A stretch of DNA of 64,000 bases from Candidatus Avelusimicrobium luingense. GTDB lineage: Bacteria; Elusimicrobiota; Elusimicrobia; Elusimicrobiales; Elusimicrobiaceae. The notes under the pieces were generated by a model. It saw only the letters and a program-made list of their open reading frames with translations. It did no database searches and was not told where the DNA came from. This document shows, one piece after another, positions 227-62,853 of this stretch. The stretch is taken from contig OOHK01000007.1 of assembly GCA_900315845.1 (NCBI GenBank), positions 1 through 64,000 on the forward strand. The letters are read 5' to 3'. Position numbers and translations under genes: made by a program. Every line of letters starts with the position of its first letter. Position 1 is the first letter of the stretch.

Positions 227-293
227 ATTGTAATGCAATTACCAAAAAAGAGCAAGGGCCAAAAGGCCTATTTTTTACATAGGACTTTTTGCC
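227..293 (-). promoter_or_regulatory. secretome-type promoter: paired palindromes and -10 box
   Basis: On the minus strand the perfect palindrome GGCCTTTTGGCC (257-268) ends 24 bp upstream of TACAAT (232-227). A second, degenerate copy lies at 282-293, 25 bp centre to centre. The two together also form a 14-of-16 bp inverted repeat. The start codon at 177 lies about 50 nt downstream of the -10 box. The same arrangement recurs at seven other secreted-protein genes in the window. Confidence 0.7.
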
Positions 294-436
294 CTCTAAT
301 ACAGCATCAAACACTAACCAAGTGTTATACCTGTATTATAACAAAAAAGCAAACGCTGTCAATATTTTTATATTTAACCAACGCTTTTTCGTCCTATACA
401 ACAACCAAAATATATATAATAGTATAAGAGAGAAAT

Positions 437-1858
437 TTGAAAAAACAAGGTTGTTTTCCGTCAAGAATATACATTATGCACGTCAGAGCACCACATATCA
501 GCAAAAAATGGATGATTTTTTCCGTAACAGCCAACGGAACATTTATGTCCACCTTGTCAGCGGGCATTGTAAACATTGCACTACCGACCATGTCAGAGCA
601 GTTTCATGTATCGTTAGAAAACATCCAACTTGTCGTCAGTTTATATTTATTAGTATTGACGTGTTTATTACCGGTATTTGGCAAATTAAGCGACTTATAT
701 AGCCGTAAGTGGATGTATTTAGGTGGCTTTATTACGTTTGGAGTAGGGGCTTTATTTGGCGCGCTTGCCAATTCGCTTACAACCATGTTGCTGGCACGGG
801 CCGTACAAGGTATCGGATCATCGGCCATGATGGCTACATCGCAAGCCTTAATTGCACAAATTTTTCACGGGAAGTCGCGCGGAAAAGCGTTTGGCGCCAT
901 CGGTGCGGTAGTAGCAGGGGGATCTTTGGCAGGGCCGGCTATCGGCGGTGCGCTCATTCAAGCATGGGGTTGGCGATCTATCTTTTGGCTGACTATTCCT
1001 ATTTGTATATTAGGTGTATGGCGGGGTATTTATTTAATTCCGCGTTTTAAGGCTATTAAAAAGATGAAGATGGACTATCTCGGCGCGGCGTATTTTGCCG
1101 GGATGAGTTTTACCTTTTTATATGCGCTTAACACCGCTACCGATAAAGGATGGAATCACCCGCTTATTTTACTTTCTTTTGCTTTATCGCTCGTATTATT
1201 TCTTTTATTTTTCCGTCGGGAACATACCTCAAAATATCCTTTCATCGGTTTAACGATTTTTAACATCAAAGCCATTTCATACGGTTGTCTGGTGGCCGTG
1301 TTGGGATATACGGCCCTTTTTACAAACTCCGTATTACTTCCGTTTTATTTAGCCGATATTATGCACTTGGATCCTATTCATATAGGTATGCTTATTTTGC
1401 CTTTCCCTATAACATTAGCCATTACTTCCGCCGTTTCCGGAGCCCTGTGCGCTAAATGGCCCGCTCGTATTATTACAACGGCGGGGTTTGTCTTATTGAT
1501 AATTTCTACCTTAATGTTTGCCTTTATCGGCAGTGAACCGAGTTTATCTTATATTGTGCTGGCCCAACTAATTATGGGTGCCGGAAGCGGTACGTTTCAA
1601 GTACCTAATAATAATACCGTCATCAGCGCGGCACCGAAGGGAAAACTCGGTGTGGTGGCGAGTGTCAATGCGCTATCTCGCAACGTAGGGATGATAGCAG
1701 GGATTGCACTTTCCGTGGCCATTTGTGTACTCGTGCAACGTTATTTGGAAAGCCGCGGGATCTTACCTGATACCGCATTTATCGGCGGCTACCAAGCGGC
1801 CATGTTATTTGGAACGGCCTGTTCGGTGGTGGGGGGCGTTTTATCTGCCAAAAGGTAA
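437..1858 (+). CDS. MFS drug/H+ antiporter, EmrB/QacA (DHA2) type
   Basis: A 473-residue polytopic membrane protein of the major facilitator superfamily, the right length for the DHA2 multidrug family with 12-14 helices. Diagnostic stretches are GIVNIALPTMSEQF in helix 1, GKLSDLYSRKWMYLGG (motif A loop between helices 2 and 3), and RAVQGIGSSAMMATSQALIA in helix 4. It probably exports drugs or other amphipathic compounds by proton antiport in the inner membrane; the substrate is not predictable. The open start is TTG at 437 preceded by AGAGAGAA; ATG at 476 would remove 13 poorly conserved residues and is a fair alternative. A TATAAT sits near 415-420. No partner genes (EmrA, TolC) are adjacent. 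Confidence 0.88.
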   Translation: MKKQGCFPSRIYIMHVRAPHISKKWMIFSVTANGTFMSTLSAGIVNIALPTMSEQFHVSLENIQLVVSLYLLVLTCLLPVFGKLSDLYSRKWMYLGGFITFGVGALFGALANSLTTMLLARAVQGIGSSAMMATSQALIAQIFHGKSRGKAFGAIGAVVAGGSLAGPAIGGALIQAWGWRSIFWLTIPICILGVWRGIYLIPRFKAIKKMKMDYLGAAYFAGMSFTFLYALNTATDKGWNHPLILLSFALSLVLFLLFFRREHTSKYPFIGLTIFNIKAISYGCLVAVLGYTALFTNSVLLPFYLADIMHLDPIHIGMLILPFPITLAITSAVSGALCAKWPARIITTAGFVLLIISTLMFAFIGSEPSLSYIVLAQLIMGAGSGTFQVPNNNTVISAAPKGKLGVVASVNALSRNVGMIAGIALSVAICVLVQRYLESRGILPDTAFIGGYQAAMLFGTACSVVGGVLSAKR

Positions 1859-1861
1859 ATG

Positions 1862-1926
1862 GGTCTTTATTACCCAAACAAATAGGTCCAAAGACTCATT
1901 TCTTTTTGGCATATTTACGCTATAAT
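1862..1926 (+). promoter_or_regulatory. secretome-type promoter: paired palindromes and -10 box
   Basis: GGTCCAAAGACT (1885-1896) lies 24 bp upstream of TATAAT (1921-1926), and a second copy, GGTCTTTATTAC (1862-1873), is 23 bp further upstream centre to centre. The upstream site begins just after the stop codon of the MFS gene. It drives the secreted-protein gene at 1964. Confidence 0.7.
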
Positions 1927-1963
1927 ATAGAGGTATTTTTGAGTAGTAAAGGAGAGATAAACC

Positions 1964-3046
1964 GTGAAAAATGTATTACGTTTATGTTGCTTCAGTGTAC
2001 TACTGAGCATGGCCGCATTAAGTGTGCAAGCAACCACATTTTACCGACAACCCGACGGAGAAATAATTATGGAAGTTTCCACTCCGGAAGAGGCAACACG
2101 TTTGCTAACATTATTCGGAGGAAAAAAGACCAACACCTTACCCGAGGAAGAAGGGGGACAACCGCTTGTCCCGCTTACATTTTCTGAACAAGATTTTAAC
2201 TTGGCACAAGCCAAACTCATCGCATATGTGCGTGACATAAACTGGAAAACGGGCTTTAATCTCACGTTACGTGATGCCGGATTTTTTCGTCGGTTGAAAA
2301 TTATTTTCAGCGGTGTTATGGAATATACGCGGCCTTACCGCATGAGTGTAAGTGCAGTGTACCCGGATTTGGAAAACCAACTGGCAGATATGGAAGATGA
2401 ACTTATAACCGTTCTGCAAGATTACGCTACGGCCACGGCGTTTGATAGAGCCATTGAACTCTCTTTAATCGGTTTGCGTTACGCCATTTTAACCGACAAA
2501 CCGTTCCTTTTGCTGTTCGTGGACGAAGGGCAATATAAAGAGTTAATCGATTTAGATAACCGGTTACACCCGAATGAACCCTCTGCTATTGAGTCCCTCA
2601 TGAATAATCTGTATAAATTTTTTGCGTATCGTGCCGTATATATGGAAAACGGATATGAACAACACGGCTATGATGCCAACACCGAGCAACTCATTAAAAT
2701 TGCTAAAATGGGAGAAGGGGATGCCACGCATACATGGGAAAAATTAGCCGCATTTGCCGAAAAAATGTATGTCTATGAAGCAAAAGGCGATTTAGACCCC
2801 GGCAAAGAACATGATATTCATCTCCCGCGGTTAGAATATGCAATGCGCCGCGTTAAACACAATTTAGATGTGGAAAAGAAAGCGGCTGACATCGCTTACA
2901 AAGACCCGGCTTACCAAGATATTGTGATAGAAGCCAAAGAGGAAGGCCCTAAAAATCCGACGTTGGAACAAGAAGCCTTAAAATGGCTTCAAGAACATAC
3001 ACGGGATGAAATTAAAGAGGCCATTCTCAAACATAAAATGAAGTAG
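1964..3046 (+). CDS. secreted protein of unknown function
   Basis: A 360-residue protein starting at GTG 1964, eight bases after an AAAGGAGAG site. Residues 1-23 ([22 protein letters not shown]) form a Sec signal peptide. The mature part is mostly charged and predicted helical, with no motif I recognise; residues 60-130 and 220-330 look amphipathic. It ends 8 bp before rmlA, so the two are probably cotranscribed from the palindrome-type promoter at 1862-1926, although a functional link to nucleotide-sugar synthesis is not obvious. Confidence 0.75.
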
Positions 3047-3054
3047 AGGAAACT

Positions 3055-3924
3055 ATGAAAGGAATTATCCTAGCAGGCGGAGCAGGTACCCGGTTGTATC
3101 CGGCCTCGCGTCCGATTTCCAAAATTTTACTACCCGTCTATGACAAACCGATGATTTATTATCCTTTGTCTGTACTTATGCAGGCGGGCATACGTGATAT
3201 TTTGATTATTACCACACCTGAAGATAGTAGTAATTTCAAAAAACTACTGGGGGATGGTAGCAACTGGGGAATAAAACTTTCATACAAAGCACAACTTGTT
3301 AAACGCGGAATTGCCGATGCATTTTTACTGGGTGAAGAATTTATCGGGCAAGATTCCTGCGCACTCATTTTAGGAGATAACTTGTTTTACGGAAACGGTT
3401 TTGAACGTCTCTTAAAAGCCGCTTGTTTGCGTAAAACAGGGGCTACTGTTTTTGCTTACGAAGTAGCCAATCCGCAACGTTTCGGCGTGGTGGAATTTGA
3501 CGAAAATCATCGGGCTTTATCGTTGGAAGAAAAACCGGCCCAACCTAAAAGCCGTTTTGCGGTAACGGGGCTTTATTTTTACGATAACAACGTCGTAAAA
3601 TATGCCAAAGAATTAAAACCGTCCAAACGTGGCGAATTGGAAATTACCGACTTAAACAAACGCTATTTGGAAGAAGGAAATTTACACGTTACCACCTTGG
3701 AACGCGGCTTTGCCTGGTTGGACACCGGCACGCATGAAAGCGTACTGCAAGCGGCTAACTTCGTGCATAGTATGCAAGTAAATCAAGGCATTGAAATTGC
3801 CTGCTTAGAAGAAATTGCACTTCACAATGAATTTATTACACCGCAAGAATTAAAGGTACAACTTGTCAACCAACCGAACAACATTTATTATAATTTTGTG
3901 CGTGAGTTGGTAAAAGAGAAATAG
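3055..3924 (+). CDS. rmlA: glucose-1-phosphate thymidylyltransferase RmlA
   Basis: Makes dTDP-glucose from glucose-1-phosphate and dTTP (EC 2.7.7.24), the first step of dTDP-rhamnose and related sugar synthesis in the cytoplasm. At 289 residues it has the usual length. Residues 5-16 ([12 protein letters not shown]) are the nucleotide-binding signature, followed by [30 protein letters not shown] near residue 108 and [29 protein letters not shown] precedes the ATG. It follows a secreted-protein gene by 8 bp. The usual partners rmlB, rmlC and rmlD are not in the window. Confidence 0.96.
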
Positions 3925-4509: not shown

Positions 4510-4536
4510 ACATGTTCCTCCCTTAAAAACAGTCTC

Positions 4537-12643: not shown

Positions 12644-15600
12644 ATGATTTTCTTACGGCAATATGCAAGCACTGGGTTGGTTTGCTTATCCTTATTGGTG
12701 GCAAACGAAGGAACCGTATTGGCTCAAACGAAGAAAAAAACGCCCACGCCCCCGGCCTCTTCAACCGTAAATGTTAACTTGACAATGCCTCAACGAGATC
12801 CTGCCTTACAGGATACTTCTTTTGCTGGTCAAGCCCAACGTGACCAAGCCTTTCAGAAGATAGCCCAAGCCACGAATAAAGCCTTAAAAGAAGAAGAGGC
12901 TCCTAAAGCCGTTATTACAGATTATTTAACTCGCATGAAGCAGGCATTGGCCAAAAATCAGTTTGATACTTATAAAACCTTGGTAGATGAATTAAACAAT
13001 TTAATTATTTCCGATTTGGAAAAAGAATTCTCCACTTTGGCCAAAGCCATTTTGGCCGAAAATAATGTTTATAAACTTATGGTATTACAAGACCATATTT
13101 CACAAGGTACTATTTCCGACAAAGATTACGAGCGTACCGTCAACGCATTATATGCCGATATATACCAACCTTGCAAAGGAAATGAATGCGAAGTGCGCGG
13201 GGCCATGATTTTAACTTTGGCAACGGCAGGGTCTTTCAATGTGGCCAAGAAACACGGCCACGATATAGCCTTTACAAATAAGATTGTAAGACGTATTTCG
13301 GGCGCCGCAAAAAATAATTACGGTGGGTTTGAGTCTGACAAAATCATCGGCGAACATCTTATTCCCGCTTTATCCATTCTCTCCAGCCCGACCGGGATGC
13401 GTACCGTCGTGCAAACCTATGTGAACAAATACGGCAAAAAAGGACGTTATGAACCGGCCTCCAACCCGCAAGATGCTTTTTTAATCCAACTGACGGAACT
13501 GGCCGTACAGTTTCCGGTATTATTAAAACGGACAGCTCCGAATTCTTACCATACTCCCAATTTATTAGCAGATTGGGCAAACAGTGATAATTTCTTATTG
13601 CAATTACGCGGAAATATTGAAATCGGCCGTTCTCAATTTAGGTTAGGTAAAAAATACTATAGCGATGAAACACTCGATCAAGTCAGACAATACTTGCGTA
13701 CCAAATATTGCAATATCGGCAACGCTTACGGTACAAATATTAAAGGTACCGCCGAAGATAAATTTTTAGCCCGTCGGGATATTTCTTTCGGATACAACAA
13801 TGGCAACAAATCCGAGGTGCTTACTTCAGCTGGTGCTAGCCGTTGTCATGTCACTACCCCGGCCGAACCGAATCAACAGGAAATCATTGATGATTTGGCG
13901 CATACTGCTTTGAAAACAGTCATTTTATTTGCTATTCCGCCGGGTTGTGCTTTAGCCGGTATAGCCAAAGTAGCAAAAAACGCTATTAAAGCCGTTAAAT
14001 TAGCCAACAAAACAGGCAAACCGTTGCGGGATATTTATAAGACCGCAAAAGCAGTCCACAAGGGACAAAAAGGCTACGATAGAGCTCATGCCCTGGAAAA
14101 TGCGGCCCGAAATATTCAAAACGGTCCTTCCGCTTTAGGCAGACAAGGTGCTTATGATGCAAAAGTAGCCGCAGAGGCCCGCCAAACCCAAAAGGCTTAT
14201 GCAGGCCAACGGGGAGTTGCCGGTAGTTCAAAAACCGCCACTCCGACTATACCTACCGCTACCAAAAAGGTCGCGCCAACAGCCGAAGGAACAATTGTTA
14301 AAGACGGAAACAGTTGGATTTCTCGCAGCAAGACAGCCCCTACCACGCCACCGCCCGGCGTAGAGGCAAACAGCGGAACATGGCAACGTCAAATCGGTTA
14401 TGGTGAACAACCGTATATCTGGCGGGGAAATGCCACGAATGCAAATCCGCGGGCAGACAAACTGACAGATATCCCGTCTACGATATCACAGGATAATACC
14501 CCGGCATGGGGCGGTTCTTATTACCGGACTCCGACCGATATGACCGGCACGGCGTCGGCGGTACATTATACACCGCAACCCATGGTCCGCGGAGGAAATG
14601 GGGGAACGACGACCACCACACGCAACCCGATCGGATATCGCATCAGAGCATCCGAACCGAGCGAGTATATTGTGACAGATAAACTCCGAGATCTCAAATT
14701 TGTTGTACGAGAGAGTGAAGGCCCCGCTATTCAAAAAATCTTAACGACGGCAGCGGATAATGTAAGGGCCAAAACAAAAGTAGTACATGATTTAAATATG
14801 GAAATCGCCCAATTAGAAAAGAAAGAACAACAATTGTTCAGTTTCTTCGGGCGAGATTCCCGACAAGCAAAACTGGCCCAAAAGCAACAAGAACTTCGCA
14901 GAGCCAAAACTGAATATGACCGAGCCGTACATCAACGCAGAGAGGTGTTAACTGCTATCAGAAACGACAAGACACCCCAGGAAATACAAAATGTCTACGA
15001 AACGGCTGCCAAATCTTTTGATCCCGCGGCCGCTACGGCCCGTCCGGCCGCACAAGCCAATAACAGCGGTTTAGAAGTAGTTGAAATGTCACCGGAAGAG
15101 GCACGACGGTTTGCGGGCCAAGAGTCCGTTACGCCACCAACGACCAAAGGTAGCACCACACGTCCGGCGCCCCAAGCCGATAACGCCGGCGTGGAAGTAG
15201 TCGAAATAACACCGGAAGAAGCACGACGGTTGGCAGGCAAGAAGTCCGTTACGCCACCGACGCCCAAAGCCCCTGTCCGAGCAACGACAATCCCGACGAA
15301 CGGTTTATCTACCCGGCTGAGCGGTCAAATAGAACGGGACGATTTTAAGGAACTTATTAACGAAATATCCACCAACTTGGATAAAGCCAAATCTAATACA
15401 GCGCTCTCGGCAGCCCAACGCGCCCGCGTAGAGGAAGCGGAACAGTATTTTGCCCGTTTGACACCCGCGCAAGCCAATGACATTCGCACACTGACTTCCG
15501 CTGAATTTAGACAACACGCGGCTGTTTTACGCTCGCCAACGGCAACCGAACACGCTTTCTATGTAGAAGGAGCGGGCTTTGAACATGCTTATGACGTATC

Positions 15601-16468
15601 TGCTTCGTGGTTTGTGGGACAAGAAAACGGTTTTATTCCTTCTGTGGTAGGAAATCCGCAAGAAGGTTTTTCCAGAATCAAACTGCAACAAACTTTTTCT
15701 ACGGCGGAAAAAACGAATAAACCCATATTGGTACAAATTACTTCTCACGGAGAAATTGACGGCGCAGGTCGATTTTATATTCCTTCCCGCGGGTTAAATA
15801 GTTCTACCCAAATAACGACAACCGAATTAGTAGATGACTTGCAAATGTTGCGCAAAACGACCGGCACTCCGGTAGTTAATTTGCAGTTAGATGCCTGCCA
15901 CTCCGGACAATTTATGCGGGAATTTGAAGCATTACCCAAAGCCAAGCGGGAAGGTATCAATGTATTTGCTCACTCGGGCGGAGTACAACAGGAAGGGTTA
16001 TTAGGATCCGGCTTTGCACAAACCAAATCGCGCGGCGTCGGTTCTATTGCCTCGCACCAACAACAAGTGTTAATTGACCAAATTAAGGACGGAAATGTTT
16101 TCTCACGCGGATATATTGACGGAGTCTCTTTCAATCCGTTAGAACAAGCCGCCTTACGCGCTAAAGCCGAAGGCAGCCCGTTGGCGACAGAATTACAATT
16201 GTTAAGCCGCCTTCAAAATGCTTCCAAACGGGAAGTAGAGGCCATTATGAAACAATATACTAAAATTAATCCCTCTGTCGGATTCAGCCGGGGAAGTAAT
16301 TTTAACAGAGCCAGTGTCAATGTAAGCAAACAAATTCTTAATTACATTACCGATACTTCTAACAAAATGATCTCCGGCCAACGTTGGGGGAAGCAAGCCG
16401 CTTCCTCATCGGGCGGGTTCTTTGGCAAATTCTTTCATAAAGAGCCGGAAATTGTTGGAGTAATATAA
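12644..16468 (+). CDS. large secreted caspase-like (clan CD) protein
   Basis: A 1274-residue protein with a signal peptide (residues about 1-28, ending TVLAQ). The region about 1000-1170 looks like a peptidase of clan CD (caspase/metacaspase, C14): ILVQITSHGEIDGAG places a putative catalytic His at 1035, and NLQLDACHSGQF a putative Cys at 1085, each after a hydrophobic strand and 50 residues apart, as in the family. Residues about 110-400 are helical with a cysteine cluster (PCKGNECEV). A hydrophobic stretch (TVILFAIPPGCALAGIAKVA, about 425-445) may be a membrane segment or hairpin. A coiled coil covers about 700-780. Two tandem 45-residue repeats with VVEMSPEEARR and VVEITPEEARR lie near 800-885. 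The role is unknown: toxin, surface protease and adhesin maturation are all possible. Confidence 0.8.
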   Translation: MIFLRQYASTGLVCLSLLVANEGTVLAQTKKKTPTPPASSTVNVNLTMPQRDPALQDTSFAGQAQRDQAFQKIAQATNKALKEEEAPKAVITDYLTRMKQALAKNQFDTYKTLVDELNNLIISDLEKEFSTLAKAILAENNVYKLMVLQDHISQGTISDKDYERTVNALYADIYQPCKGNECEVRGAMILTLATAGSFNVAKKHGHDIAFTNKIVRRISGAAKNNYGGFESDKIIGEHLIPALSILSSPTGMRTVVQTYVNKYGKKGRYEPASNPQDAFLIQLTELAVQFPVLLKRTAPNSYHTPNLLADWANSDNFLLQLRGNIEIGRSQFRLGKKYYSDETLDQVRQYLRTKYCNIGNAYGTNIKGTAEDKFLARRDISFGYNNGNKSEVLTSAGASRCHVTTPAEPNQQEIIDDLAHTALKTVILFAIPPGCALAGIAKVAKNAIKAVKLANKTGKPLRDIYKTAKAVHKGQKGYDRAHALENAARNIQNGPSALGRQGAYDAKVAAEARQTQKAYAGQRGVAGSSKTATPTIPTATKKVAPTAEGTIVKDGNSWISRSKTAPTTPPPGVEANSGTWQRQIGYGEQPYIWRGNATNANPRADKLTDIPSTISQDNTPAWGGSYYRTPTDMTGTASAVHYTPQPMVRGGNGGTTTTTRNPIGYRIRASEPSEYIVTDKLRDLKFVVRESEGPAIQKILTTAADNVRAKTKVVHDLNMEIAQLEKKEQQLFSFFGRDSRQAKLAQKQQELRRAKTEYDRAVHQRREVLTAIRNDKTPQEIQNVYETAAKSFDPAAATARPAAQANNSGLEVVEMSPEEARRFAGQESVTPPTTKGSTTRPAPQADNAGVEVVEITPEEARRLAGKKSVTPPTPKAPVRATTIPTNGLSTRLSGQIERDDFKELINEISTNLDKAKSNTALSAAQRARVEEAEQYFARLTPAQANDIRTLTSAEFRQHAAVLRSPTATEHAFYVEGAGFEHAYDVSASWFVGQENGFIPSVVGNPQEGFSRIKLQQTFSTAEKTNKPILVQITSHGEIDGAGRFYIPSRGLNSSTQITTTELVDDLQMLRKTTGTPVVNLQLDACHSGQFMREFEALPKAKREGINVFAHSGGVQQEGLLGSGFAQTKSRGVGSIASHQQQVLIDQIKDGNVFSRGYIDGVSFNPLEQAALRAKAEGSPLATELQLLSRLQNASKREVEAIMKQYTKINPSVGFSRGSNFNRASVNVSKQILNYITDTSNKMISGQRWGKQAASSSGGFFGKFFHKEPEIVGVI

Positions 16469-16544: not shown

Positions 16545-16611
16545 GCCCAAAAGGCCCACATACAACTAGGCCCTTTGACCCTTGTTGATAAGACGACAAA
16601 AAACTTAAAAT
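16545..16611 (+). promoter_or_regulatory. secretome-type promoter: paired palindromes and -10 box
   Basis: GGCCCTTTGACC (16569-16580) lies 25 bp upstream of TAAAAT (16606-16611), with TTGTTG just after the palindrome as a poor -35. A second palindrome, GCCCAAAAGGCC (16545-16556), is exactly 24 bp upstream centre to centre. Confidence 0.7.
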
Positions 16612-16635: not shown

Positions 16636-18720
16636 ATGAAAAAAATTTTTATTTTAACACTTGTTTTATTAGGTTGCACGTGCGGGGAAACATTTGCCCA
16701 AGGGCCACTTGTAACGGCTGGAAAAAGTGCAAAAGTTATACTTCGCAGTAACGAGCAAATGATGCTCATTATGCGTCAATTATCTTCCGAAGGATTAGAA
16801 TTTAATGGAACTTTAACCGCGTTGGTTGCCAATACCAATTTGCCAAATCCGTCGCAGGTACACTCTTTTGACACCTACATAAACAGCACCTGGCCGGCCC
16901 GTGCGGAATCGGCATTAGTTTGGAAAAGCCCTACTCTCAATGTAGAACAGGCCGCCCAATTATTACTTAAGCAAGAACCTATTACCCATTTATCTGCAAA
17001 ACAACAACAAGATTTTTATTTAATTTCTTATCCGGCCTTAGTATTAGAAGGGCCTTTTGTCGCCGAACCGCAACAACTTTCTTATGCGCTGGCCTATTAC
17101 CGTAATATTTTAGAAGGCAAACCTGTCAAAGCCACCTTGCCTCAAGCCTTAAGTGATTGGGCCCGCTCCATGGCAGCCGTTACTGATTTGGGGCTGTTGG
17201 GCACTTCCAATGATATATTTTTGATTTTGAAAAATGCTAAAAAACCATTTCCGCCTTTAGTTACTCCGTGGACCGATTTAATCACGGTGCAAGCCTTGCT
17301 TCAACACGAAGCCTACGATGCTATTGAAGAATTGGCCAAATTCCGTTTGACAAATATCGAAAGCAATCACCCGGAACTTTTATCCAGTTATTGGCATCAC
17401 ATTGCGGAATATATGAATAATATCGGGCATCCGTTATCTATTACGCCCAATAAAATAGCCGGATATTTTTTCCAACGGCCTATGCCATCTAAAATTCAAA
17501 GATTACTTGCCCAATATAACCCGTATAATTTATTTTATGTACAACCGTCTGTCAAAGTATTTGAAAACGGGTTAGCCTTGCGTCAAAACTTTTTACAAAA
17601 AATGCAACAAGAACAAGTAGCCGAACAAGAAGATTTAACCGATCTTATTTCCCAACAACTTAGTGAGAACATCCGTCCGGAAACGATGCCATCTTCTTCT
17701 ATCGCGCCGGAACAACTCACTCCGGAAAATATGGGATTTTCACGCTATAACAATCGTGCTATTTGGCAAACGGACCCCAAAGAAGGATATGAAAAATTAA
17801 TTCGTCGGGCCTTGCAAGAATGTGTCACTTTACGACAACAAATTGAATTAACACAAATAAAACTCAACGGAAATCTCCGCCCCTATCGTACTAAAGAACG
17901 GCTGCAATTAGAACGCCAATTGGCTAATTTACAAATGCAATATCAAGCGGCCGAGGCCCGGTTGCATCAAATTCATACCGAGCATGCAAAAAACACCCCG
18001 ATTGATCAAATTTCTTATTTAACTTATAAAGAACCGTTAGATATAGAAAATGATAACACACTTCCTTTTTCTACCCATTTTGATCCTACTATGTCCACTT
18101 CTTCATTAGGATTATTAACATTCTTTCACGCGCCTGTTAGTTCCCGTGAAGAAGCCAATTTGAAACAAGCCTTATTAGATTATGCCGAACATAATGTGAC
18201 ATTAGCCCAACAAGCGGCAAGAAATTCTAATGATCCCGAATTACTGCGCCAACACCAAAATGCTATAGACAAACTGTCCTATATCCACCGGGAAATTATC
18301 GCAGGCGCCCCGTATGAAATTATTGTTGTCAATGCGTACGGCGTTTCGGCGGAAGAAACAACCAGCACCCTTTTTGAAATACCGCCCATGCCTTACCGGT
18401 TTGAAGGGCATGGCCGTTACAGTTCATTTGAAGCCCCGGTGAAAAATAAATCCGATGGGGATGCAAAACAAAAATTATTTGATGATATCTATTATCACCA
18501 AGAAGCATTCTTCCAACAGCAAGTCTTAATGTATCGATACGAGATAAGAGCCATGGAACAAGATAAACGCCTTATCGGACGTAAAAATCGCGCACAGTTG
18601 CTGGAAAAATACCGGTTTGAATTAGCCGAAGCTGAAGCGAATTTATTGCGGGCTCAACAACGGATAGAGCGCCTCCTTAACCAAATCAAACAAGGTACTG
18701 CAATTAAAGAAATTCACTAA
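16636..18720 (+). CDS. secreted or lipid-anchored coiled-coil protein, unknown
   Basis: A 694-residue protein of unknown family. The N-terminus MKKIFILTLVLLGCTCGETFAQG is a signal peptide; LLGC at residue 14 could be a loose lipobox, while TFAQ would suit signal peptidase I. The body is alpha-helical and Gln/Leu-rich. Coiled-coil-like segments lie near residues 385-455 (RLQLERQLANLQMQYQAAEA) and at the C-terminus near 650-690 (LAEAEANLLRAQQRIERLL). It follows the caspase-like gene but has its own terminator-separated, palindrome-type promoter. The ribosome binding site is weak (AAATAGGTA). Confidence 0.72.
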   Translation: MKKIFILTLVLLGCTCGETFAQGPLVTAGKSAKVILRSNEQMMLIMRQLSSEGLEFNGTLTALVANTNLPNPSQVHSFDTYINSTWPARAESALVWKSPTLNVEQAAQLLLKQEPITHLSAKQQQDFYLISYPALVLEGPFVAEPQQLSYALAYYRNILEGKPVKATLPQALSDWARSMAAVTDLGLLGTSNDIFLILKNAKKPFPPLVTPWTDLITVQALLQHEAYDAIEELAKFRLTNIESNHPELLSSYWHHIAEYMNNIGHPLSITPNKIAGYFFQRPMPSKIQRLLAQYNPYNLFYVQPSVKVFENGLALRQNFLQKMQQEQVAEQEDLTDLISQQLSENIRPETMPSSSIAPEQLTPENMGFSRYNNRAIWQTDPKEGYEKLIRRALQECVTLRQQIELTQIKLNGNLRPYRTKERLQLERQLANLQMQYQAAEARLHQIHTEHAKNTPIDQISYLTYKEPLDIENDNTLPFSTHFDPTMSTSSLGLLTFFHAPVSSREEANLKQALLDYAEHNVTLAQQAARNSNDPELLRQHQNAIDKLSYIHREIIAGAPYEIIVVNAYGVSAEETTSTLFEIPPMPYRFEGHGRYSSFEAPVKNKSDGDAKQKLFDDIYYHQEAFFQQQVLMYRYEIRAMEQDKRLIGRKNRAQLLEKYRFELAEAEANLLRAQQRIERLLNQIKQGTAIKEIH

Positions 18721-27740: not shown

Positions 27741-28295
27741 CTAATTAAGTTCGTAATAATAATAACCGCTTACCCAACCGTCGGGGGTACTGGTACTGGT
27801 GGCCGTACCCGTTTGCCCACCGCTCATAGCCTTACATATCGCCTTGTATTTTTCTTCTTTGGCTATGCAAGTTGCGTTTTGAATAGGCGTTCCGTCAATC
27901 GCGGCAAACCCGCGGGCATACATTAAATGATAATCATTGTCCCCGCATTTTACTGATCCGGCAATACCTGCTCCGTTAGGAAATAACATACAGCAAAACA
28001 TTTTATTATTTTTCCGGCAGACGCCATTGGATATATCATTTTGCGTACTCATATCGGCAGGTATTTCCACAGCTAACTCGTCTAATGTAGTAGGCCAACT
28101 GCTATTAGCCAAATAAAACGCATCAGCAGATTGTGCCAAACTGCCGGCCAAGGCACGGTACGTCGCAAAGCGCGATTTTTCCACCGCTTGCGTATATTGC
28201 GGCAACGCCACCGCCGCCAATATGCCGATAATCAAAACTACCACTAACAATTCTATGAGCGTAAAACCTTTTACACATTCCGATTGATTTTTCAT
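27741..28295 (-). CDS. type IV prepilin-like protein
   Basis: A 184-residue prepilin when started at ATG 28295, which has AAGGAATAAAC upstream; an upstream in-frame ATG at 28361 lies in the promoter and is unlikely. The short leader MKNQSECVKG ends at the prepilin peptidase site G|FTLIE, followed by LLVVVLIIGILAAVALPQY. The C-terminal domain contains several cysteines (VCRKNNKMFCCML, KCGD, CIAKEEKYKAIC) and a Gly/Thr/Ser-rich loop near the end. It shares only the N-terminal helix with the other two prepilins here. The promoter TTGATA-17-TATTTT lies at 28333-28361. Confidence 0.9.
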   Translation of the reverse strand: MKNQSECVKGFTLIELLVVVLIIGILAAVALPQYTQAVEKSRFATYRALAGSLAQSADAFYLANSSWPTTLDELAVEIPADMSTQNDISNGVCRKNNKMFCCMLFPNGAGIAGSVKCGDNDYHLMYARGFAAIDGTPIQNATCIAKEEKYKAICKAMSGGQTGTATSTSTPDGWVSGYYYYELN

Positions 28296-28332
28296 ATGTT
28301 TATTCCTTATTGTCACACTATTTCTATAAATA

Positions 28333-28361
28333 AAAATAGCAAAAAACAAATCGGATATCAA
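28333..28361 (-). promoter_or_regulatory. prepilin promoter
   Basis: TTGATA (28361-28356), 17-bp T-rich spacer, TATTTT (28338-28333). It resembles the other two prepilin promoters but its T run is interrupted (TTTG then six T), so slippage is less likely. Confidence 0.55.
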
Positions 28362-28386
28362 GTTTTATGATATCAAACTTCTCAAA

Positions 28387-28453
28387 AGCCAAAAGGCCCA
28401 GACGGTAATAGGTCTTTTGACCCTCGTCGGACAATCTATAAATTATCTAAAAT
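28387..28453 (+). promoter_or_regulatory. secretome-type promoter: paired palindromes and -10 box
   Basis: The perfect palindrome GGTCTTTTGACC (28411-28422) lies 25 bp upstream of TAAAAT (28448-28453); TATAAT at 28453 is an alternative -10. A second palindrome AGCCAAAAGGCC (28387-28398) is exactly 24 bp upstream centre to centre. Confidence 0.72.
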
Positions 28454-28475: not shown

Positions 28476-29465
28476 ATGAAATTTTTAGTAACATTTTTCT
28501 TACTGCTGGCGGGGGGAAATTTTGCTTTTGCAACGACGACGCACGATACAATTCACGAACAATTAACCCGTAGCGTAGCGCAACAACAAATAAGTCCGGC
28601 CGGATTTTCCAATGAAGGAGCCATAGAGAAAAATCACCGGATAACCTTTACCGCTTTCGACGGCAGATTCGTACAGGAAGATCATAATTTCGCCCCGATG
28701 GAACAGGCGACGATTTATTGTAAAGCCTATGCGTTAGATGCCCATTGGACGTTAGTAGCAGCCCCTTGCGCACACGCTTTTGCTTTTAACGGTTGGAAGA
28801 AAAATATCCCGTATGCCCAACAGATTTATTCCGTTTCCATGCATACCAACAACTTTGAAAATTGGGACAGTATTTTTCAAGATGATACAAATTATTTTTT
28901 AGGTTGGATTTCTAAAAACGGGCAACTGCCGCACGAAGATACCCACATGGCCTATAACAATCACATTATGCTGATTTGGCACGAACAACGACTCTATGAA
29001 GGGCCATACGTAAATGTGCTTGCCACGACATCACCTGAACAATTATTTGCATTAGAAACCAACAATACCTTCAAAATCAATACCGCGCGTTACATGTTTT
29101 TTTCCGACAGCATACGCGAGCGTTCTTTGCAAAAAGGCTCCGTCAAAGGCAATACGTTTAGATTAGATGAAAGTGCCACCGACTTATCCGGTACATCCAC
29201 CGATCCGCTGTTTTTAATTACCCCGCAACATACCGAATTTATTGCCGGATATAATGCCGCCAAATTAGGTAAAAAATGGTTTCGTGCCCAGTGGCTATCC
29301 GGTGAGAAAAGTTTAGAAGGGTTGGCTTGTCCGGTTTGGTACAGTTTAACAAAAAATGATTTACAGTTTATTGAACAAACCGTCCGCGCTTATCGCCCGC
29401 AAGATTGGTTTAGTATTAAAGGCCGTTTATTTTTCAACCAAACGCAAACGCCCTTTTTTAAGTAA
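28476..29465 (+). CDS. secreted trypsin-fold protein, probably catalytically dead (copy 1)
   Basis: A 329-residue protein with signal peptide (KFLVTFFLLLAGGNFAFA). It is the first of three tandem paralogues. YALDAHWTLVAAPCAHAF (residues about 90-107) resembles the strand ending in the trypsin active-site His (xLTAAHC), but the His is replaced by Pro. HIMLIWHEQ (about 168-176) sits where DIALL would hold the catalytic Asp, with His in that place. LSGTSTDPLFLI (about 236-247) resembles GDSGGPLF and retains a Ser. This suggests a chymotrypsin-fold protein that has lost at least two triad residues. It ends with RLFFNQTQTPFFK, shared with copy 2. Promoter with paired palindromes at 28387. Confidence 0.7.
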   Translation: MKFLVTFFLLLAGGNFAFATTTHDTIHEQLTRSVAQQQISPAGFSNEGAIEKNHRITFTAFDGRFVQEDHNFAPMEQATIYCKAYALDAHWTLVAAPCAHAFAFNGWKKNIPYAQQIYSVSMHTNNFENWDSIFQDDTNYFLGWISKNGQLPHEDTHMAYNNHIMLIWHEQRLYEGPYVNVLATTSPEQLFALETNNTFKINTARYMFFSDSIRERSLQKGSVKGNTFRLDESATDLSGTSTDPLFLITPQHTEFIAGYNAAKLGKKWFRAQWLSGEKSLEGLACPVWYSLTKNDLQFIEQTVRAYRPQDWFSIKGRLFFNQTQTPFFK

Positions 29466-29481
29466 GTCCTAAAACAATCTA

Positions 29482-29547
29482 GGTCTTTTTTACTGCGTAT
29501 ATTAGGTCTTAAGACCGATGAAACTTTAGTTATTTATTATCTATACT
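29482..29547 (+). promoter_or_regulatory. secretome-type promoter: paired palindromes and -10 box
   Basis: The perfect palindrome GGTCTTAAGACC (29505-29516) lies 25 bp upstream of TATACT (29542-29547). A degenerate copy GGTCTTTTTTAC (29482-29493) is 23 bp upstream centre to centre. The layout is nearly identical to the one at 30573. Confidence 0.72.
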
Positions 29548-29580
29548 ATAATTATGGAATATATTTTATAAGGAGATTGT

Positions 29581-30525
29581 ATGAAAAAAATTATTGCTGC
29601 AGTAAGTCTGTTAATTTGTGCCGGAGTTGTATCTTTTGCAAGCGACGTCAAGTACGCCATAGATAAGCAACTTCAAGAAGCCGTTGCCAAAACCGTTCTG
29701 GCCCAACCGTCTCCCAACAAAGGGGCCATTGATGAAAACATTACCATGGAATTTGATCTTTACGGCGGGGATCTCGTTGTAGGGCGCACCCAAGTCAACG
29801 GAGAATATAAAGAAGACGATTTAATTGAAAACCCCTATCCCAGTTTTTCTATCAAATGTAAAGCCTATGCATTAGATGAACATTGGGCCATTTTAGCGGG
29901 TACTTGCCCCGAAGCCATCAACACCGGCTTACAAAATGAGTGGAGTGATGACCCCAATTCTATGACTGTTTTTGCGGTAGGCACCTATATGGGACGGAAA
30001 GAAAAATTTTTGGGTTTCTTTTTAGATTATGGCTTAAAAGAAGATATCAAAAACCGTATGGATCATAATGATCATGTTATGTTAGTGTGGAACGAGGAAG
30101 CCACTTTCTCCGGCCCGTTTGTTAAAGTGTTAGCCACGCAAAACCCAAACCGTTTGTTTGCCTTGTCCGACACACACACGTTCAAAATCAATTCGGCTTC
30201 GTTAGGGTTAAATGCCGTTAGAACCAGAACGCTTAAAACGGGTTCTGTTAAAAACGGAACGTTGGAATTACAAGAATCTTTTGCAGATTTGTCCGGTACG
30301 TACACCGATCCGTTATTTGCTATCAATTCACGCGGAAATGAATTTATTACCGGGTATAACCAAGCCGTACAATTTGTTAACGTCCATTCTTCCAGTTGGT
30401 ATACGTTAACCGAGAGAGATTTACATTTCATTAAAAATACGGTTCAAGCAAATCGCCCGCAGGATTGGGCCCGTATTAAAAATCGGTTGTTTTTCAACCA
30501 AACTCAAAAGCCTTTCTTTAAGTAA
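29581..30525 (+). CDS. secreted trypsin-fold protein, probably catalytically dead (copy 2)
   Basis: A 314-residue paralogue of the preceding gene, with signal peptide KKIIAAVSLLICAGVVSFAS and AAGGAG upstream. YALDEHWAILAGTCPEA (about 98-114) matches the trypsin His region but has Thr for His. HVMLVWNEEA (about 163-172) has His in the Asp position. DLSGTYTDPLFAI (about 235-247) has Tyr where the nucleophile Ser is expected. So all three triad positions look substituted. Two conserved cysteines (CKAYALD and GTC) could form the trypsin Cys42-Cys58-like disulfide. The end FFNQTQKPFFK is like copy 1, and the last 13 bp of the gene region are repeated once downstream. Confidence 0.7.
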   Translation: MKKIIAAVSLLICAGVVSFASDVKYAIDKQLQEAVAKTVLAQPSPNKGAIDENITMEFDLYGGDLVVGRTQVNGEYKEDDLIENPYPSFSIKCKAYALDEHWAILAGTCPEAINTGLQNEWSDDPNSMTVFAVGTYMGRKEKFLGFFLDYGLKEDIKNRMDHNDHVMLVWNEEATFSGPFVKVLATQNPNRLFALSDTHTFKINSASLGLNAVRTRTLKTGSVKNGTLELQESFADLSGTYTDPLFAINSRGNEFITGYNQAVQFVNVHSSSWYTLTERDLHFIKNTVQANRPQDWARIKNRLFFNQTQKPFFK

Positions 30526-30548
30526 GTCTTAGAAACTTTAAGTAAGTC
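30516..30548 (+). repeat. duplicated gene end after pseudo-trypsin copy 2
   Basis: CTTTAAGTAAGTC, which spans the last codons and stop of the gene, occurs at 30516-30528 and again at 30536-30548. It is a short counterpart of the larger gene-end repeats after pgk and the ferredoxin gene. Confidence 0.6.
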
Positions 30549-30551
30549 CCC

Positions 30552-30583
30552 AAAAAGGCCTAAAAAGATTTAGGCCTTTTTTG
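30552..30583 (+). terminator. intrinsic terminator
   Basis: AAAAAGGCCTAAA-aaga-TTTAGGCCTTTTTT, a perfect 13-bp stem. Its right arm is also the upstream operator copy (30573-30584) of the next promoter. Confidence 0.85.
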
Positions 30584-30638
30584 TCTGTTGCATTAGGTCT
30601 TAAGACTGCTGGAATTTTTACTATTTATTATTTATACT
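30573..30638 (+). promoter_or_regulatory. secretome-type promoter: paired palindromes and -10 box
   Basis: GGTCTTAAGACT (30596-30607) lies 25 bp upstream of TATACT (30633-30638). GGCCTTTTTTGT (30573-30584), shared with the terminator stem, is 23 bp upstream centre to centre. Confidence 0.7.
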
Positions 30639-30671
30639 ATGTGTATGAAGCACATTTTACAAGGAGAGTCT

Positions 30672-31568
30672 ATGAAAAAATTACTACTACTGCTGATTGC
30701 CGCTATAACAACCATGACATTTGCGCCCTGCGCTTCTGCCGCCGATCCGCAAATCATGGATAAACTTAACGAAGAATTAACTAAAATGAAGATCGTCGAT
30801 CCGACTTCTACCGATTCACACGAAGACGGCGTCTTTGAAGTTACCTTTCGCGTAAGAAGCAAATTTGATGAACCCTATGCCAAAGAGCATGCTTTTGATA
30901 AAACATGTGCCGCCGTACGTATTTCCACACATTATGTATTGGCCTCTATGGTATGTATTGGTTATTCTAATACTTCCCAGAAAACAACTTACATGGGCGC
31001 AGGGGAACCTCCTGTCGTAACGCAAACACCCGTTGCCTATCGTATTGTTGATTATGCAACTATTGAAGGGCAAAAAATCTCCGCAAAAAACATTTTTACC
31101 AATTACGACGCCCGCGTAATCTTGTTACGCTGGGATGATAAAAATGCCAAGTTAAAAAAGGAACTTTCTCCTTTACCGATTCCGAATTTGTTTATTCCGA
31201 AAAATCCTCAATCGTTGAAGACTACGTTTGATGATATCGTGGTGAATCGCAATCGTTTTCCCAACGTGGGGCGTACTACGGCAGATGTGGACATAGCCAC
31301 TATCTGCACCGCAACCAGATGCTTCCAAGTAGAATGGAAAGCCATTGATGCCCAAACAGGTTCGCCGATATTCGGCTTACTTGACAATAACAATCAAGAA
31401 TTCTTACTCGGTTTTAACGCGGCAGAACCGATTGGTAGCAATCGTCAGTCCGGCAAAACCTATTTCTTGCTGACGGATAAACTTGTTCCTTTCTTACGAC
31501 AAGTCATGGACGAGCAAGAATTTAACAACGTACAACGAAAAATAGTCGATGAAACATTTTTCAAATAA
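30672..31568 (+). CDS. secreted trypsin-fold protein, probably catalytically dead (copy 3)
   Basis: A 298-residue divergent paralogue of the two upstream genes. The start at 30672 has AAGGAG 7 bp before it and gives the signal peptide KKLLLLLIAAITTMTFAPCASAAD. CAAVRISTHYVLASMVCIGY (about 81-100) aligns with the trypsin His strand, but no His precedes the Cys. RVILLRWDD (about 145-153) lacks the Asp at the expected place, and IDAQTGSPIFGLLDNNNQEFLLGFN (about 236-260) resembles the GDSGGPLF...GI region with Thr for the nucleophile. It ends VDETFFK. Its own palindrome-type promoter and terminator make it an independent unit. Confidence 0.65.
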   Translation: MKKLLLLLIAAITTMTFAPCASAADPQIMDKLNEELTKMKIVDPTSTDSHEDGVFEVTFRVRSKFDEPYAKEHAFDKTCAAVRISTHYVLASMVCIGYSNTSQKTTYMGAGEPPVVTQTPVAYRIVDYATIEGQKISAKNIFTNYDARVILLRWDDKNAKLKKELSPLPIPNLFIPKNPQSLKTTFDDIVVNRNRFPNVGRTTADVDIATICTATRCFQVEWKAIDAQTGSPIFGLLDNNNQEFLLGFNAAEPIGSNRQSGKTYFLLTDKLVPFLRQVMDEQEFNNVQRKIVDETFFK

Positions 31569-57608: not shown

Positions 57609-57641
57609 AAAAAACCCCCGGTAGAAATACCGGGGTTTTTT
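57609..57641 (+). terminator. intrinsic terminator
   Basis: AACCCCCGGTA-gaaa-TACCGGGGTT with six T. The same GGTAGAAATACC core is used by the terminator at 58383. Confidence 0.88.
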
Positions 57642-57645
57642 ATAA

Positions 57646-57705
57646 GGCCTATACTTCTTTTAGGCCTTTTGGCCCTTGTTATCCCATGTGCTGATTTCAT
57701 AGAAT
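57646..57705 (+). promoter_or_regulatory. secretome-type promoter: palindrome, half-site and -10 box
   Basis: The perfect palindrome GGCCTTTTGGCC (57663-57674) lies 25 bp upstream of TAGAAT (57700-57705), with TTGTTA (57676-57681) as a weak -35. Only a half-site GGCC (57646-57649) remains 25 bp upstream. Confidence 0.68.
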
Positions 57706-57730: not shown

Positions 57731-58339
57731 ATGAAACGATTTATAACAGTTTGTGCGTGTTTATTTGTTCTTTGCACCCCTGTGGTGGCGCAAGATAGTT
57801 ACTATACTAAAATAAAAAGGCATATTGCAGAAAAAATAGTTCTTGCCCAAGAGCAAAAGAAAATAGAAGCCCAGCAAAAACAGGATGCGAAATTAGACAA
57901 TTGGACGAAAGCGCTGGGGGGAGATGTAGCACTTGCCAAAAGATTCTATGCACAACTGGGCGAAATACGACACGGTTTAGACGTATTTTATTTGCCCCAA
58001 GGTGTGCGCAATCTTGTTGAAGATGATAAAAATAAAGAAGCATATTATACAGAGCAACCGGTCGTTCTTGTTGTCAGTTGGCATGCTGTGTATGCGGCTT
58101 ATGGCCATCGGAATTGCACCCACCAAGTAACGATCTACAATTTAAATGCCCAACCACTCTATACTACCCGTTGGTGTCACAAGGTATTTTTTAGAGATCC
58201 TACGCAAAATATAACGTATTGGTATGACAGATTTCAAAGTGGCATCAGTTCTAACGCGGGCTATTTTAAAAGAAACCATCCCTACATCATTGACACCTAC
58301 GGAAATGGTTCCCTATATTCGAAAGGTCGCTACTACTAA
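57731..58339 (+). CDS. secreted protein of unknown function
   Basis: A 202-residue protein with signal peptide KRFITVCACLFVLCTPVVAQ. Residues about 25-75 are a charged helix rich in Lys/Gln. The C-terminal part is rich in Tyr, Trp and His (SWHAVYAAYGHRNCTHQVTIYNL, YTTRWCHKVFF, YWYDRFQSG) with a possible Cys pair (NCT, WCH). I do not recognise a family. AAAGGAG precedes the ATG. It has its own palindrome-type promoter and terminator. Confidence 0.75.
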   Translation: MKRFITVCACLFVLCTPVVAQDSYYTKIKRHIAEKIVLAQEQKKIEAQQKQDAKLDNWTKALGGDVALAKRFYAQLGEIRHGLDVFYLPQGVRNLVEDDKNKEAYYTEQPVVLVVSWHAVYAAYGHRNCTHQVTIYNLNAQPLYTTRWCHKVFFRDPTQNITYWYDRFQSGISSNAGYFKRNHPYIIDTYGNGSLYSKGRYY

Positions 58340-59674: not shown

Positions 59675-59740
59675 ATTTTCTCCAATTCTAACTCTTTTTA
59701 TTATACAATTATTTAAGCAGTTATTTCTTCGGAGGGTATT

Positions 59741-60205
59741 ATGAAAAAAATTTTACTACTATTAGTAAGTGTTTGTTTATTAGGGGCCTGTGCCAGTACG
59801 CAAGAAGCGCAAAATCTGGCCAATTGCAAATTTGCCTTGCGTAATGTGGAATTAACCGATTACAATTTAACGTCACTCGGTTTTACAGTAGTTATTGCGA
59901 TTACCAACTTGAATAAAAAACAAGCGGCTTCCATCAAACGCTTTACGGGGAAACTCACCGTCAATGATGAACCCATGGCCGATGTAACGCTTAAAGATAT
60001 TCGCATTGAGCCTAACGCTACGCAAAATGCCAAAGCCAAAATGGTAATTCCCATGTCGGTATTTAGTAACAAAGTATTGGGGTTAATCAGCATGAACAGT
60101 GCCACGCTTGATTATCATTTAACGGGTACGATGTATTTTGAAGGACCGCTTGGGGTAGAAATTCCCGTTCCGGTGGACATCGGACGTGTAGGAAACGGAA
60201 AATAA
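59741..60205 (+). CDS. LEA14/WHy-like lipoprotein
   Basis: A 154-residue lipoprotein: signal peptide KKILLLLVSVCLLGACAST with lipobox LLGAC. The body has an LEA type 2 (WHy) pattern, beta-rich with LRNVELTDYNLTSLGFTVVIAITNLNKKQAASIKRFTGKLTVND (about 35-78) and TLDYHLTGTMYFEGPLGVEIPVPVDIG near the end. Such proteins are often linked to desiccation or envelope stress but the bacterial role is unclear. GGAGGG precedes the ATG, and TATACAAT lies upstream near 59702. Confidence 0.85.
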   Translation: MKKILLLLVSVCLLGACASTQEAQNLANCKFALRNVELTDYNLTSLGFTVVIAITNLNKKQAASIKRFTGKLTVNDEPMADVTLKDIRIEPNATQNAKAKMVIPMSVFSNKVLGLISMNSATLDYHLTGTMYFEGPLGVEIPVPVDIGRVGNGK

Positions 60206-60220
60206 ATTCAGTATTTAAAG

Positions 60221-60260
60221 AAAAAACCGGGCTAAGGAAATTTCCTTGGCCCGGTTTTTT
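60221..60260. terminator. bidirectional terminator
   Basis: A long stem AAAAAACCGGGC(t)AAGGAAA / TTTCCTT(gg)CCCGGTTTTTT between convergent genes. Confidence 0.88.
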
Positions 60261-60270
60261 ACGCGTATTT

Positions 60271-62241: not shown

Positions 62242-62346
62242 TCTAATCCTTTTTCCACAAGTCCTTTTATCGTCTTATCCGCAACGAAATGCAGTTTTTT
62301 GGTATAATTTAAGAGTAACCTTAATCTTATTTATAGGAGAAAAAAC

Positions 62347-62517
62347 ATGGCTTATAAAGTAAATCCGGAAGTTTGCATTAACTGTGGTGCTTGCGAATCC
62401 GCTTGCCCCGTAACCGCTATTTGCGAAAAAGATACCAAACGCTGCATTGACGCATCCAAATGCATTGAGTGCGGCGCTTGCGCCGGCACCTGCCCGGTCA
62501 GCGCAATTGCTCTGTAA
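62347..62517 (+). CDS. 2[4Fe-4S] ferredoxin
   Basis: A 56-residue clostridial-type ferredoxin. It has both cluster motifs, CINCGACESACPV (residues 10-22) and CIECGACAGTCPV (39-51), i.e. CxxCxxCxxxCP twice. It carries electrons at low potential in the cytoplasm of anaerobes, for instance for pyruvate oxidation and hydrogenase. The ATG at 62347 follows AGGAG. The last codons and stop codon lie in the first of four tandem copies of a structured gene-end element (62485-62733). Confidence 0.97.
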   Translation: MAYKVNPEVCINCGACESACPVTAICEKDTKRCIDASKCIECGACAGTCPVSAIAL

Positions 62518-62733
62518 GAGTAAAGAGCGCAGGGCAGAATGCAAATATTACAGGCACCTGCCCGGTCAGCGCAATTGCTCTGTAAGAGTAAAGAGCGCAG
62601 GGCAGAATGCTAGCTAAGCTAGTTGCCCGGTCAGCGCAATTGCTCTGTAAGAGTAAAGAGCGCAGGGCAGAATGCTAGCTAAGCTAGCTGCCCGGTCAGC
62701 GCAATTGCTCTGTAAGAGTAAGATATTATTGCT
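62485..62733 (+). repeat. four tandem copies of the ferredoxin 3' end
   Basis: TGCCCGGTCAGCGC and what follows starts at 62491, 62559, 62624 and 62689 (spacing 68, 65, 65 bp). In the first three copies 52 bp are identical, covering codons CPVSAIAL, the TAA and 25 bp beyond; copy 4 is cut off after the stop. Each full copy folds as CTGCCC...GGGCAG with inner GCTCT...AGAGC, and the TAA is in the loop. The spacers before copies 3 and 4 contain the palindrome-like GCTAGCTAAGCTAG. This fills the 370-bp gap before the next gene together with a terminator and promoter. Confidence 0.88.
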
Positions 62734-62767
62734 AAAAAGCCCTGTCTTATGACGGGGCTTTTTTTGG
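62734..62767 (+). terminator. intrinsic terminator of the ferredoxin transcript
   Basis: AAAAAGCCCTGTC-ttat-GACGGGGCTTTTTTT, after the last gene-end repeat. Confidence 0.88.
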
Positions 62768-62794
62768 GCCGCTTTCCCGAAAAACGAAAAAATA

Positions 62795-62853
62795 GACCCA
62801 GCCGCTTCATAGGCCTTTTGACCCTTGTAAGGAAATTTGTTCTCTCATACAAT
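62795..62853 (+). promoter_or_regulatory. secretome-type promoter: palindrome, half-site and -10 box
   Basis: GGCCTTTTGACC (62812-62823) lies 24 bp upstream of TACAAT (62848-62853), with TTGTAA (62825-62830) as a weak -35 at 17 bp. A half-site GACC (62795-62798) is about 25 bp upstream. Confidence 0.7.

Follow-up and report, generated by a model that had tools for sequence, protein, structure and literature searches.

In the first 64,000 nucleotides of contig OOHK01000007.1 of Candidatus Avelusimicrobium luingense (hereafter the window), eight genes for exported proteins share an 18-bp promoter element with a palindrome at its core. We are highly confident that these genes belong to a real, conserved regulon of secreted proteins, and the likely activator, as far as sequence can tell, is a response regulator encoded elsewhere in the genome, here called RR2. 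This genome (G000; 1.46 Mb, 94.5% complete) is placed in Elusimicrobiota by the nearest named relatives of its predicted RR2 protein, which are uncultured Elusimicrobium and Elusimicrobiaceae at no more than 96% identity; the match in Candidatus Avelusimicrobium has 87% identity. Comparisons were made with the own family (f1), with two other families of the same class (f2 and f7), and across the phylum.

A reading made from the window's sequence only had described a 12-bp palindrome, GGYC-N4-GRCC, upstream of the eight genes. All eight palindromes are present at the positions listed below, and six fit this pattern exactly, whereas those at 1885 (GGTCCAAAGACT) and 30596 (GGTCTTAAGACT) are off by one base at the right edge, both ending in GACT. 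The count of the bare 12-mer is weak evidence and not significant taken alone (6 in the window versus 2.6 expected, with 9 of 100 shuffles reaching 6). All six exact copies nevertheless lie upstream of the named genes. Alignment of the promoters revealed the longer, asymmetric 18-bp element, TRGGYCTTTTGRCCCTTG, in which the TTG adjoining the palindrome occupies the place of the -35 box. With up to two mismatches, the 18-mer matched named promoters and an upstream copy at 28383-28400 and nothing else in the window, and the exact 12-mer likewise had no copy elsewhere in it. The promoter of gene 1964 falls outside the 18-mer set even at three mismatches. By eye, all eight products begin with a signal-peptide-like N-terminus, as had been claimed, and there are also exported products without the site, such as that of the gene at 12644. 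The promoters are as follows.

227..294, minus strand: promoter of gene 177 (minus); 18-mer 253-270, palindrome 257-268, -10 TACAAT 227-232, upstream copy about 280-294
1883..1926, plus strand: promoter of gene 1964; weaker palindrome 1885-1896, -10 TATAAT 1921-1926, degenerate upstream copy immediately 5'
16545..16611, plus strand: promoter of gene 16636; upstream copy 16545-16558, 18-mer 16567-16584, -10 TAAAAT 16606-16611
28387..28453, plus strand: promoter of gene 28476; upstream copy 28387-28400, 18-mer 28409-28426, -10 TAAAAT 28448-28453
29480..29547, plus strand: promoter of gene 29581; upstream copy 29480-29493, palindrome 29503-29516, -10 TATACT 29542-29547
30594..30638, plus strand: promoter of gene 30672; palindrome 30596-30607 (right edge GACT), -10 TATACT 30633-30638
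57638..57705, plus strand: promoter of gene 57731; upstream half-site within 57638-57651, 18-mer 57661-57678, -10 TAGAAT 57700-57705
62795..62853, plus strand: promoter of gene 62888; half-site GACCCA about 62795-62800, 18-mer 62810-62827, -10 TACAAT 62848-62853

The upstream copy of the 28476 promoter sits in the space shared with a divergent pilin-like gene (27741-28361), and that of the 30672 promoter falls, by eye, within a terminator-like hairpin. For the gene behind the latter promoter, the third of three protease-like genes, the start at 30672 given in the sequence-only reading is more likely than the 30639 of the open reading frame (ORF) caller.

The extended element is beyond chance in the whole genome, where the 18-mer at up to two mismatches gave 23 matches and the control, the reversed pattern, none. 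A looser scan, which tolerated as many as three mismatches but none in TA, gave 31 matches versus 10 for the control. Among the ten three-mismatch matches, C3:173531 and C8:115418 look real, 28383 is the upstream copy mentioned above, and the remaining seven look like chance, which is about what the control count predicts. We then examined 25 sites, comprising the 23 and two added from another genome scan, with signal peptides called by eye. The predicted link to export was confirmed, as 24 of the 25 sites precede a same-strand ORF with a signal peptide, and the remaining one (C5:28383), which faces the pilin-like gene, belongs to the 28476 promoter as its upstream copy. The distance from site to ORF was 31-80 bp in the 23 measured sites; the 24th is C8:115418. 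In a separate, crude scripted test, 22 of 23 sites passed, compared with 3 of 23 in the opposite direction, and the single failure was a gene truncated by a contig end. This test is liberal, as 22 of 57 window ORFs pass it, including membrane proteins, pilins and regulon genes; against that background, the probability of 22 in 23 is about 1e-8. Counting C3:173531, 1885 and 30596, the regulon comprises at least 27 promoters in G000. The proposal of a secreted-protein regulon with a shared activator-type promoter is supported, and the regulon is larger than first noted.

The spacing to the -10 box is fixed, in agreement with the earlier description. Counted from the start of the 18-mer, the offset to a TATAAT-like hexamer is 38 or 39 bases at 22 of the 23 sites (13 and 9, respectively), and at the sole exception (L004) the detected palindrome is probably the upstream copy, with a poorer primary site 3' of it. 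For relatives, we scored 25 of 29 sites in G029, 11 of 22 in G011 (those with 0-1 mismatch), 9 of 9 in G052, 6 of 6 in G043, 6 of 6 in G058, 9 of 9 in G037, 4 of 13 in G040 and 10 of 16 in G039, and, in f7, 21 of 21 in G139, 10 of 15 in G120 and 19 of 22 in G143. Three of the four unscored sites of G029 are upstream copies beside scored sites; at C4:91952 of that genome, the upstream copy was scored in place of the site, as a miss. The hexamer lies at 38 and 39 in 26 and 4 of the 36 sites of G029 and G011, and its position peaks at 37-38 in f2 (9 and 20 of 44 sites). In f7 it lies at 38 in 28 of 50 sites and starts at 32 bases are common, which indicates the same architecture in another part of the class. 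At 19 of the 23 G000 sites, a half-site, GRCCYA (at least 5 of 6 bases), has its end 9 or 10 bp upstream of the 18-mer, so that the centre of a second dimer site would lie another 24-25 bp upstream.

Start codons close to the element provided a further reference point. Within the genus, ribosome-site-like sequence preceded none of the 17 start codons located 29-35 bases from the 18-mer, compared with 27 of 34 other starts, and f2 showed the same split (1 of 7 near starts versus 19 of 22 others). The near-start class, about a third of genus starts, fits leaderless messages that begin at the AUG; none of the window's eight genes belongs to it. Taking these starts as +1, about 50 bases from the start of the 18-mer, puts the centre of the palindrome at -42.5, in accord with the site near -42 proposed before. 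An operator near -41 to -43 overlying the -35 region, combined with a -10 box, is the arrangement predicted for a class II activated sigma-70 promoter, and the -10 spacing and leaderless-like starts found here fit it.

At least one 18-mer match was found in all 61 relatives, G000 counted. Counts per genome range from 2 to 30 among the other 36 members of the genus (reversed control, 0 to 4), while the excess is smaller in f2, where some genomes are within chance. Signal-peptide ORFs lie 3' of 29 of the 36 sites in G029 and G011 (8 in the opposite direction), and of 29 of 44 sites in f2 (opposite, 4) and 30 of 50 in f7 (opposite, 11), the f2 and f7 genomes having been chosen for high counts or missing RR1 (see below), so that their rates are not family-wide. 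None of 78 genomes outside the class has RR2, and together they contain 18 sites versus 84 for the control.

The regulator had been expected to be encoded outside the window, as a CRP/FNR-type or other dimeric protein. G000 has two response regulators of the GerE/LuxR (NarL) type, RR1 and RR2. The candidate RR2 (C8:175795-176478) has a receiver domain (PF00072, E 9.1e-30) and a GerE helix-turn-helix domain (PF00196, E 8.4e-18), both over the cut-off, and its closest relatives in the PDB include VraR, DevR/DosR and GerE. Two kinase genes lie upstream of RR2. One encodes a sensor kinase that combines HAMP and HisKA with a dCache-like stretch (at 40.5 bits, under the cut-off of 45), the other a receiver-HisKA protein; both kinases are of the HisKA (PF00512) and not the HisKA_3 type. 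This kinase-kinase-RR2 order occurs in all 62 related loci with enough flank. RR1 (C4:100182-100820) lies beside a HisKA_3 kinase. On the 3' side of RR2, two pilus-like genes, recognized by eye and assigned to no family, are present in 64 of 64 loci with enough flank (for example, L045 1916-3654) and are without the element.

We compared the presence of these regulators with that of the element in 149 genomes of the phylum, scoring RR2 as present at E<=1e-45, a regulator as absent when it had no match at the E-value of the given search, and a genome as enriched when it had at least three more element sites than the control. Enrichment was found in 59 of 66 genomes with RR2 versus 1 of 83 without it; the genomes are kin, and the Fisher value for this contrast is therefore not a probability of independent events. 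Nine of the 14 genomes with RR2 but no RR1 match were enriched. Three f7 genomes with no RR1 match at E<=1e-38, G120, G139 and G143, have 15, 21 and 22 sites versus 3, 3 and 1 for the control. G163, the one genome of the own family with no element site, has both RR1 and an RR2.

The recognition helix of RR2 was also examined. Its predicted base-contact residues, Lys184, Lys187 and Asn188, lie in SVKT[IV]KNH or close variants, and this triad (helix type K-T-x-K-N) is kept in all 70 RR2 loci and in 19 of 20 fetched orthologues. The sole deviant is G163, whose helix, SINTVKNH, has asparagine for the first lysine. The helix of RR1, SLNTIHVH, is without the triad. Passages of two DosR studies describe base contacts by Lys179, Lys182 and Asn183 (PMC4082495, PMC5861037), which align with the three RR2 residues; the DosR peptide FLAEKTVKNYVSRL spans 175-188. 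The DosR box, given in an excerpt of a third paper as TTSGGGACTWWAGTCCCSAA (PMC2275270), and our element have GG-N-C-T in common, in matching register as counted from the centre, but not the base at +-4. The DosR operator core, GGGAC-TWWA-GTCCC, is not matched by the consensus here, RGGYC-TTTT-GRCCY. Taken together, the phylogenetic profile, the helix residues and the operator register point to RR2 as the putative regulator.

Other regulators were considered against the same evidence. A CRP/FNR-family activator, as first proposed, would suit the class II position near -42 and the short spacer, which resembles that of FNR sites, but we consider it most improbable. No cNMP (cyclic nucleotide)-binding protein (PF00027) was found in G000 at E<=0.001 in a search that covered this genome and 14 controls and was positive in 10 of the controls, so that such a gene would have to lie in the missing 5% of the assembly, and the half-site TRGGYC is unlike those of FNR or CRP. 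The co-occurrence count would also allow RR1 with its HisKA_3 kinase, since 50 of 52 genomes carrying RR1 are enriched, and RR1 has a member of the regulon about 1.4 kb to its 3' side. We disfavour RR1 despite this count and give it very little probability, both because of its helix and because of the exceptions among genomes: besides the three f7 genomes, it has no match at E<=1e-38 in G043 (f2; 6 sites versus 0) or at 1e-30 in G052 (9 versus 0), and it is kept in G163, where the element is absent.

The fixed spacing of the -10 box after the 18-mer, and the abutment of the 18-mer on the -35 position, could also be explained if the 18-mer were the -35 region of an alternative sigma factor rather than an activator site. 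The palindromic core, the frequent upstream half-site (19 of 23) and the ordinary TATAAT-like -10 argue against this explanation, as do the departures in f7, which by eye fall mostly in the last four bases in a search that allows up to two, and we regard it as a slim chance. A different regulator co-inherited with RR2 is unlikely, though less so than these three. Co-occurrence cannot separate genes of equal history, and our comparison covered RR1 and RR2 out of all transcription factors; such a protein would have to match the RR2 profile, G163 included, while the base-contact residues of RR2 already appear to fit the site.

Several observations weigh against RR2 as the activator of a secretome regulon. 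Enrichment is lacking in seven of the genomes that carry RR2 (G163, G038, G042, G048, G111, G133 and G180), and two of them, G111 and G133, have an intact helix yet 3 sites versus 3 each. Conversely, sites occur in G088 without RR2 (3 versus 0), in G060 (93% complete) with no RR2 match (5 versus 0) and in G025 (72% complete), which matches RR1 alone (8 versus 1); missing assembly could account for the absence of RR2 in the last two. RR2 follows the phylogeny, and any gene of equal history would show this profile; exceptional genomes alone separate RR2 from RR1 by co-occurrence. The helix change was seen in G163 alone, and the RR2 of that genome has diverged elsewhere too (60% identity). The 786,295 bases flanking 70 RR2 loci contain no element site (control, 1), so that autoregulation, which we reject, lends no support. 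In the families other than f1, many sites lie in front of genes that encode no signal peptide.

We consider it probable, on balance, that a pathway of sensor kinase, receiver-kinase and RR2 drives the secretome regulon by class II activation. The element, its geometry, the signal-peptide association, the conservation and the co-occurrence with RR2 were computed, and from these we infer binding, activation, the order of the phosphorelay and the signal. An extracytoplasmic signal sensed by the membrane kinase would lead to phosphorylation of RR2, whose dimers would bind the palindrome TRGGYC-TTTT-GRCCYA at -42.5, assisted by another dimer that occupies the weaker copy, 24-25 bp upstream. RR2 would then recruit sigma-70 RNA polymerase in class II fashion to promoters with a poor -35, the TTG beside the palindrome. 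The targets in G000 would be exported proteins, proteases among them, and, across the genus, about one transcript in three would start at the start codon.

The regulated genes of the window are listed below.

1..177, minus strand: regulated gene of which the contig contains just the start; signal peptide MKKLLSLLLSFTMIFTSVAPAAAQ
1964..3046, plus strand: regulated gene, exported protein; no Pfam family
16636..18720, plus strand: regulated gene, exported protein; weak similarity to the product of regulon gene L302
28476..29465, plus strand: regulated gene, exported; trypsin-like features by eye alone, paralogue of 29581, no Pfam family over the cut-off
29581..30525, plus strand: regulated gene, exported; paralogue of 28476, 38% identical
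30672..31568, plus strand: regulated gene, exported; poor alignment (18%) with the 28476 and 29581 products
57731..58339, plus strand: regulated gene, exported, 202 amino acids; no Pfam family over the cut-off
62888..64000, plus strand: regulated gene, exported, metzincin-like; HExxHxxGLxD by eye, Pfam match under the cut-off, continues past the window

Pfam matches over the cut-off were obtained for 3 of 20 regulon proteins scanned, namely an M20 peptidase (L291) and two proteins with trypsin-like domains (L296 and L299, the latter also with Peptidase_C3). Metzincin signals below the cut-off were found in L297, L298 and the 62888 product, which is a paralogue of the regulon members C6:187787 and C8:131047. 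These matches indicate that the regulon consists partly of secreted proteases, with most other products outside known families. In sequence searches of the PDB, the regulon protein L292 had no match, and for the metzincin L297 a single, weak one was obtained (3k7n, E 0.0017). An AlphaFold model of the trypsin-like paralogues, built from three sequences, gave no usable structure (mean pLDDT, the predicted local distance difference test, 33). By eye, the trio at 28476-31568 has trypsin-like spacing (C...H...C), with the catalytic His of AAHC replaced by P, T or V, and may represent inactive protease folds.

Among other observations, a coiled-coil-like family without a signal peptide (start ...PATKxD) follows the element in f2 (L244, L247, L248 and L249) and f7 (L306), which would make these proteins part of the regulon beyond f1. 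The gene at 12644-16468 encodes a large exported protein with a signal peptide and, by eye, a caspase-like HG...DACHSG signature, without an element upstream. Contigs C5 (L006 1-177) and C6 (L029) end inside near-identical N-terminal stretches, VPVEIGRALVTSANTGKYVAESLKAITEIYQGAY, so that a repeated secreted-protein gene probably breaks the assembly.

Among known systems, DosR/DevR of Mycobacterium tuberculosis resembles the one proposed here in several respects. As far as the cited passages go, it is a NarL-family regulator with Lys, Lys and Asn base contacts at matching helix positions, and its palindrome has GG-N-C-T in register. A section of a DevR promoter study describes boxes that are packed closely and act cooperatively, the proximal one lying over the -35 and the second being weaker (PMC3029386), an arrangement like that of the element and its nearby weaker copy. 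The differences are that the element has Y and not A at +-4 from the centre, that the outer bases are unlike, that the kinases neighbouring RR2 are of the HisKA type, and that the targets are exported proteins instead of dormancy genes. NarL-type regulators are usually partnered by HisKA_3 kinases. Since operator core and kinase type differ, we describe the RR2 system as DosR-like in its working and do not file it as a DosR member.

The best full-length PDB sequence match to RR2 is VraR, which in Gram-positives serves the cell-wall stress response and binds other sites. For the DNA-binding domain, the best match is GerE of Bacillus subtilis, which has a LuxR-type helix-turn-helix, is not known to have a receiver domain and acts with sigma-K in sporulation. 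The GerE site is TRGGY, equal to the half-site here, although it was not found in the literature searched. SgmT/DigR of Myxococcus xanthus is a two-component system with several secreted proteins, one of them a metalloprotease, among its direct targets; according to the sections cited (PMC3509222), it differs in its palindrome (TAATC...GATTA), in its variable site positions, in acting as both activator and repressor, and in having eight activated genes with a site.

A limited search of the open-access literature returned no description of such a regulon in gut Elusimicrobiota. These bacteria are known chiefly from metagenomes, and the relatives of the RR2 protein come nearly all from metagenome-assembled genomes. 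A regulon defined by sequence offers a handle on many exported proteins without a known family, and a candidate regulator and its kinases can now be named for it. The leaderless start codons serve as built-in markers of transcription starts, and the helix change in G163 makes the pairing of RR2 and element directly testable. More broadly, though we hold this at slightly less than even odds, the system may be an ancient secretome switch of Elusimicrobia, in which one envelope-sensing relay acts on a fixed tandem operator to control jointly a large share of the proteins that face host or environment, many of the messages being leaderless.

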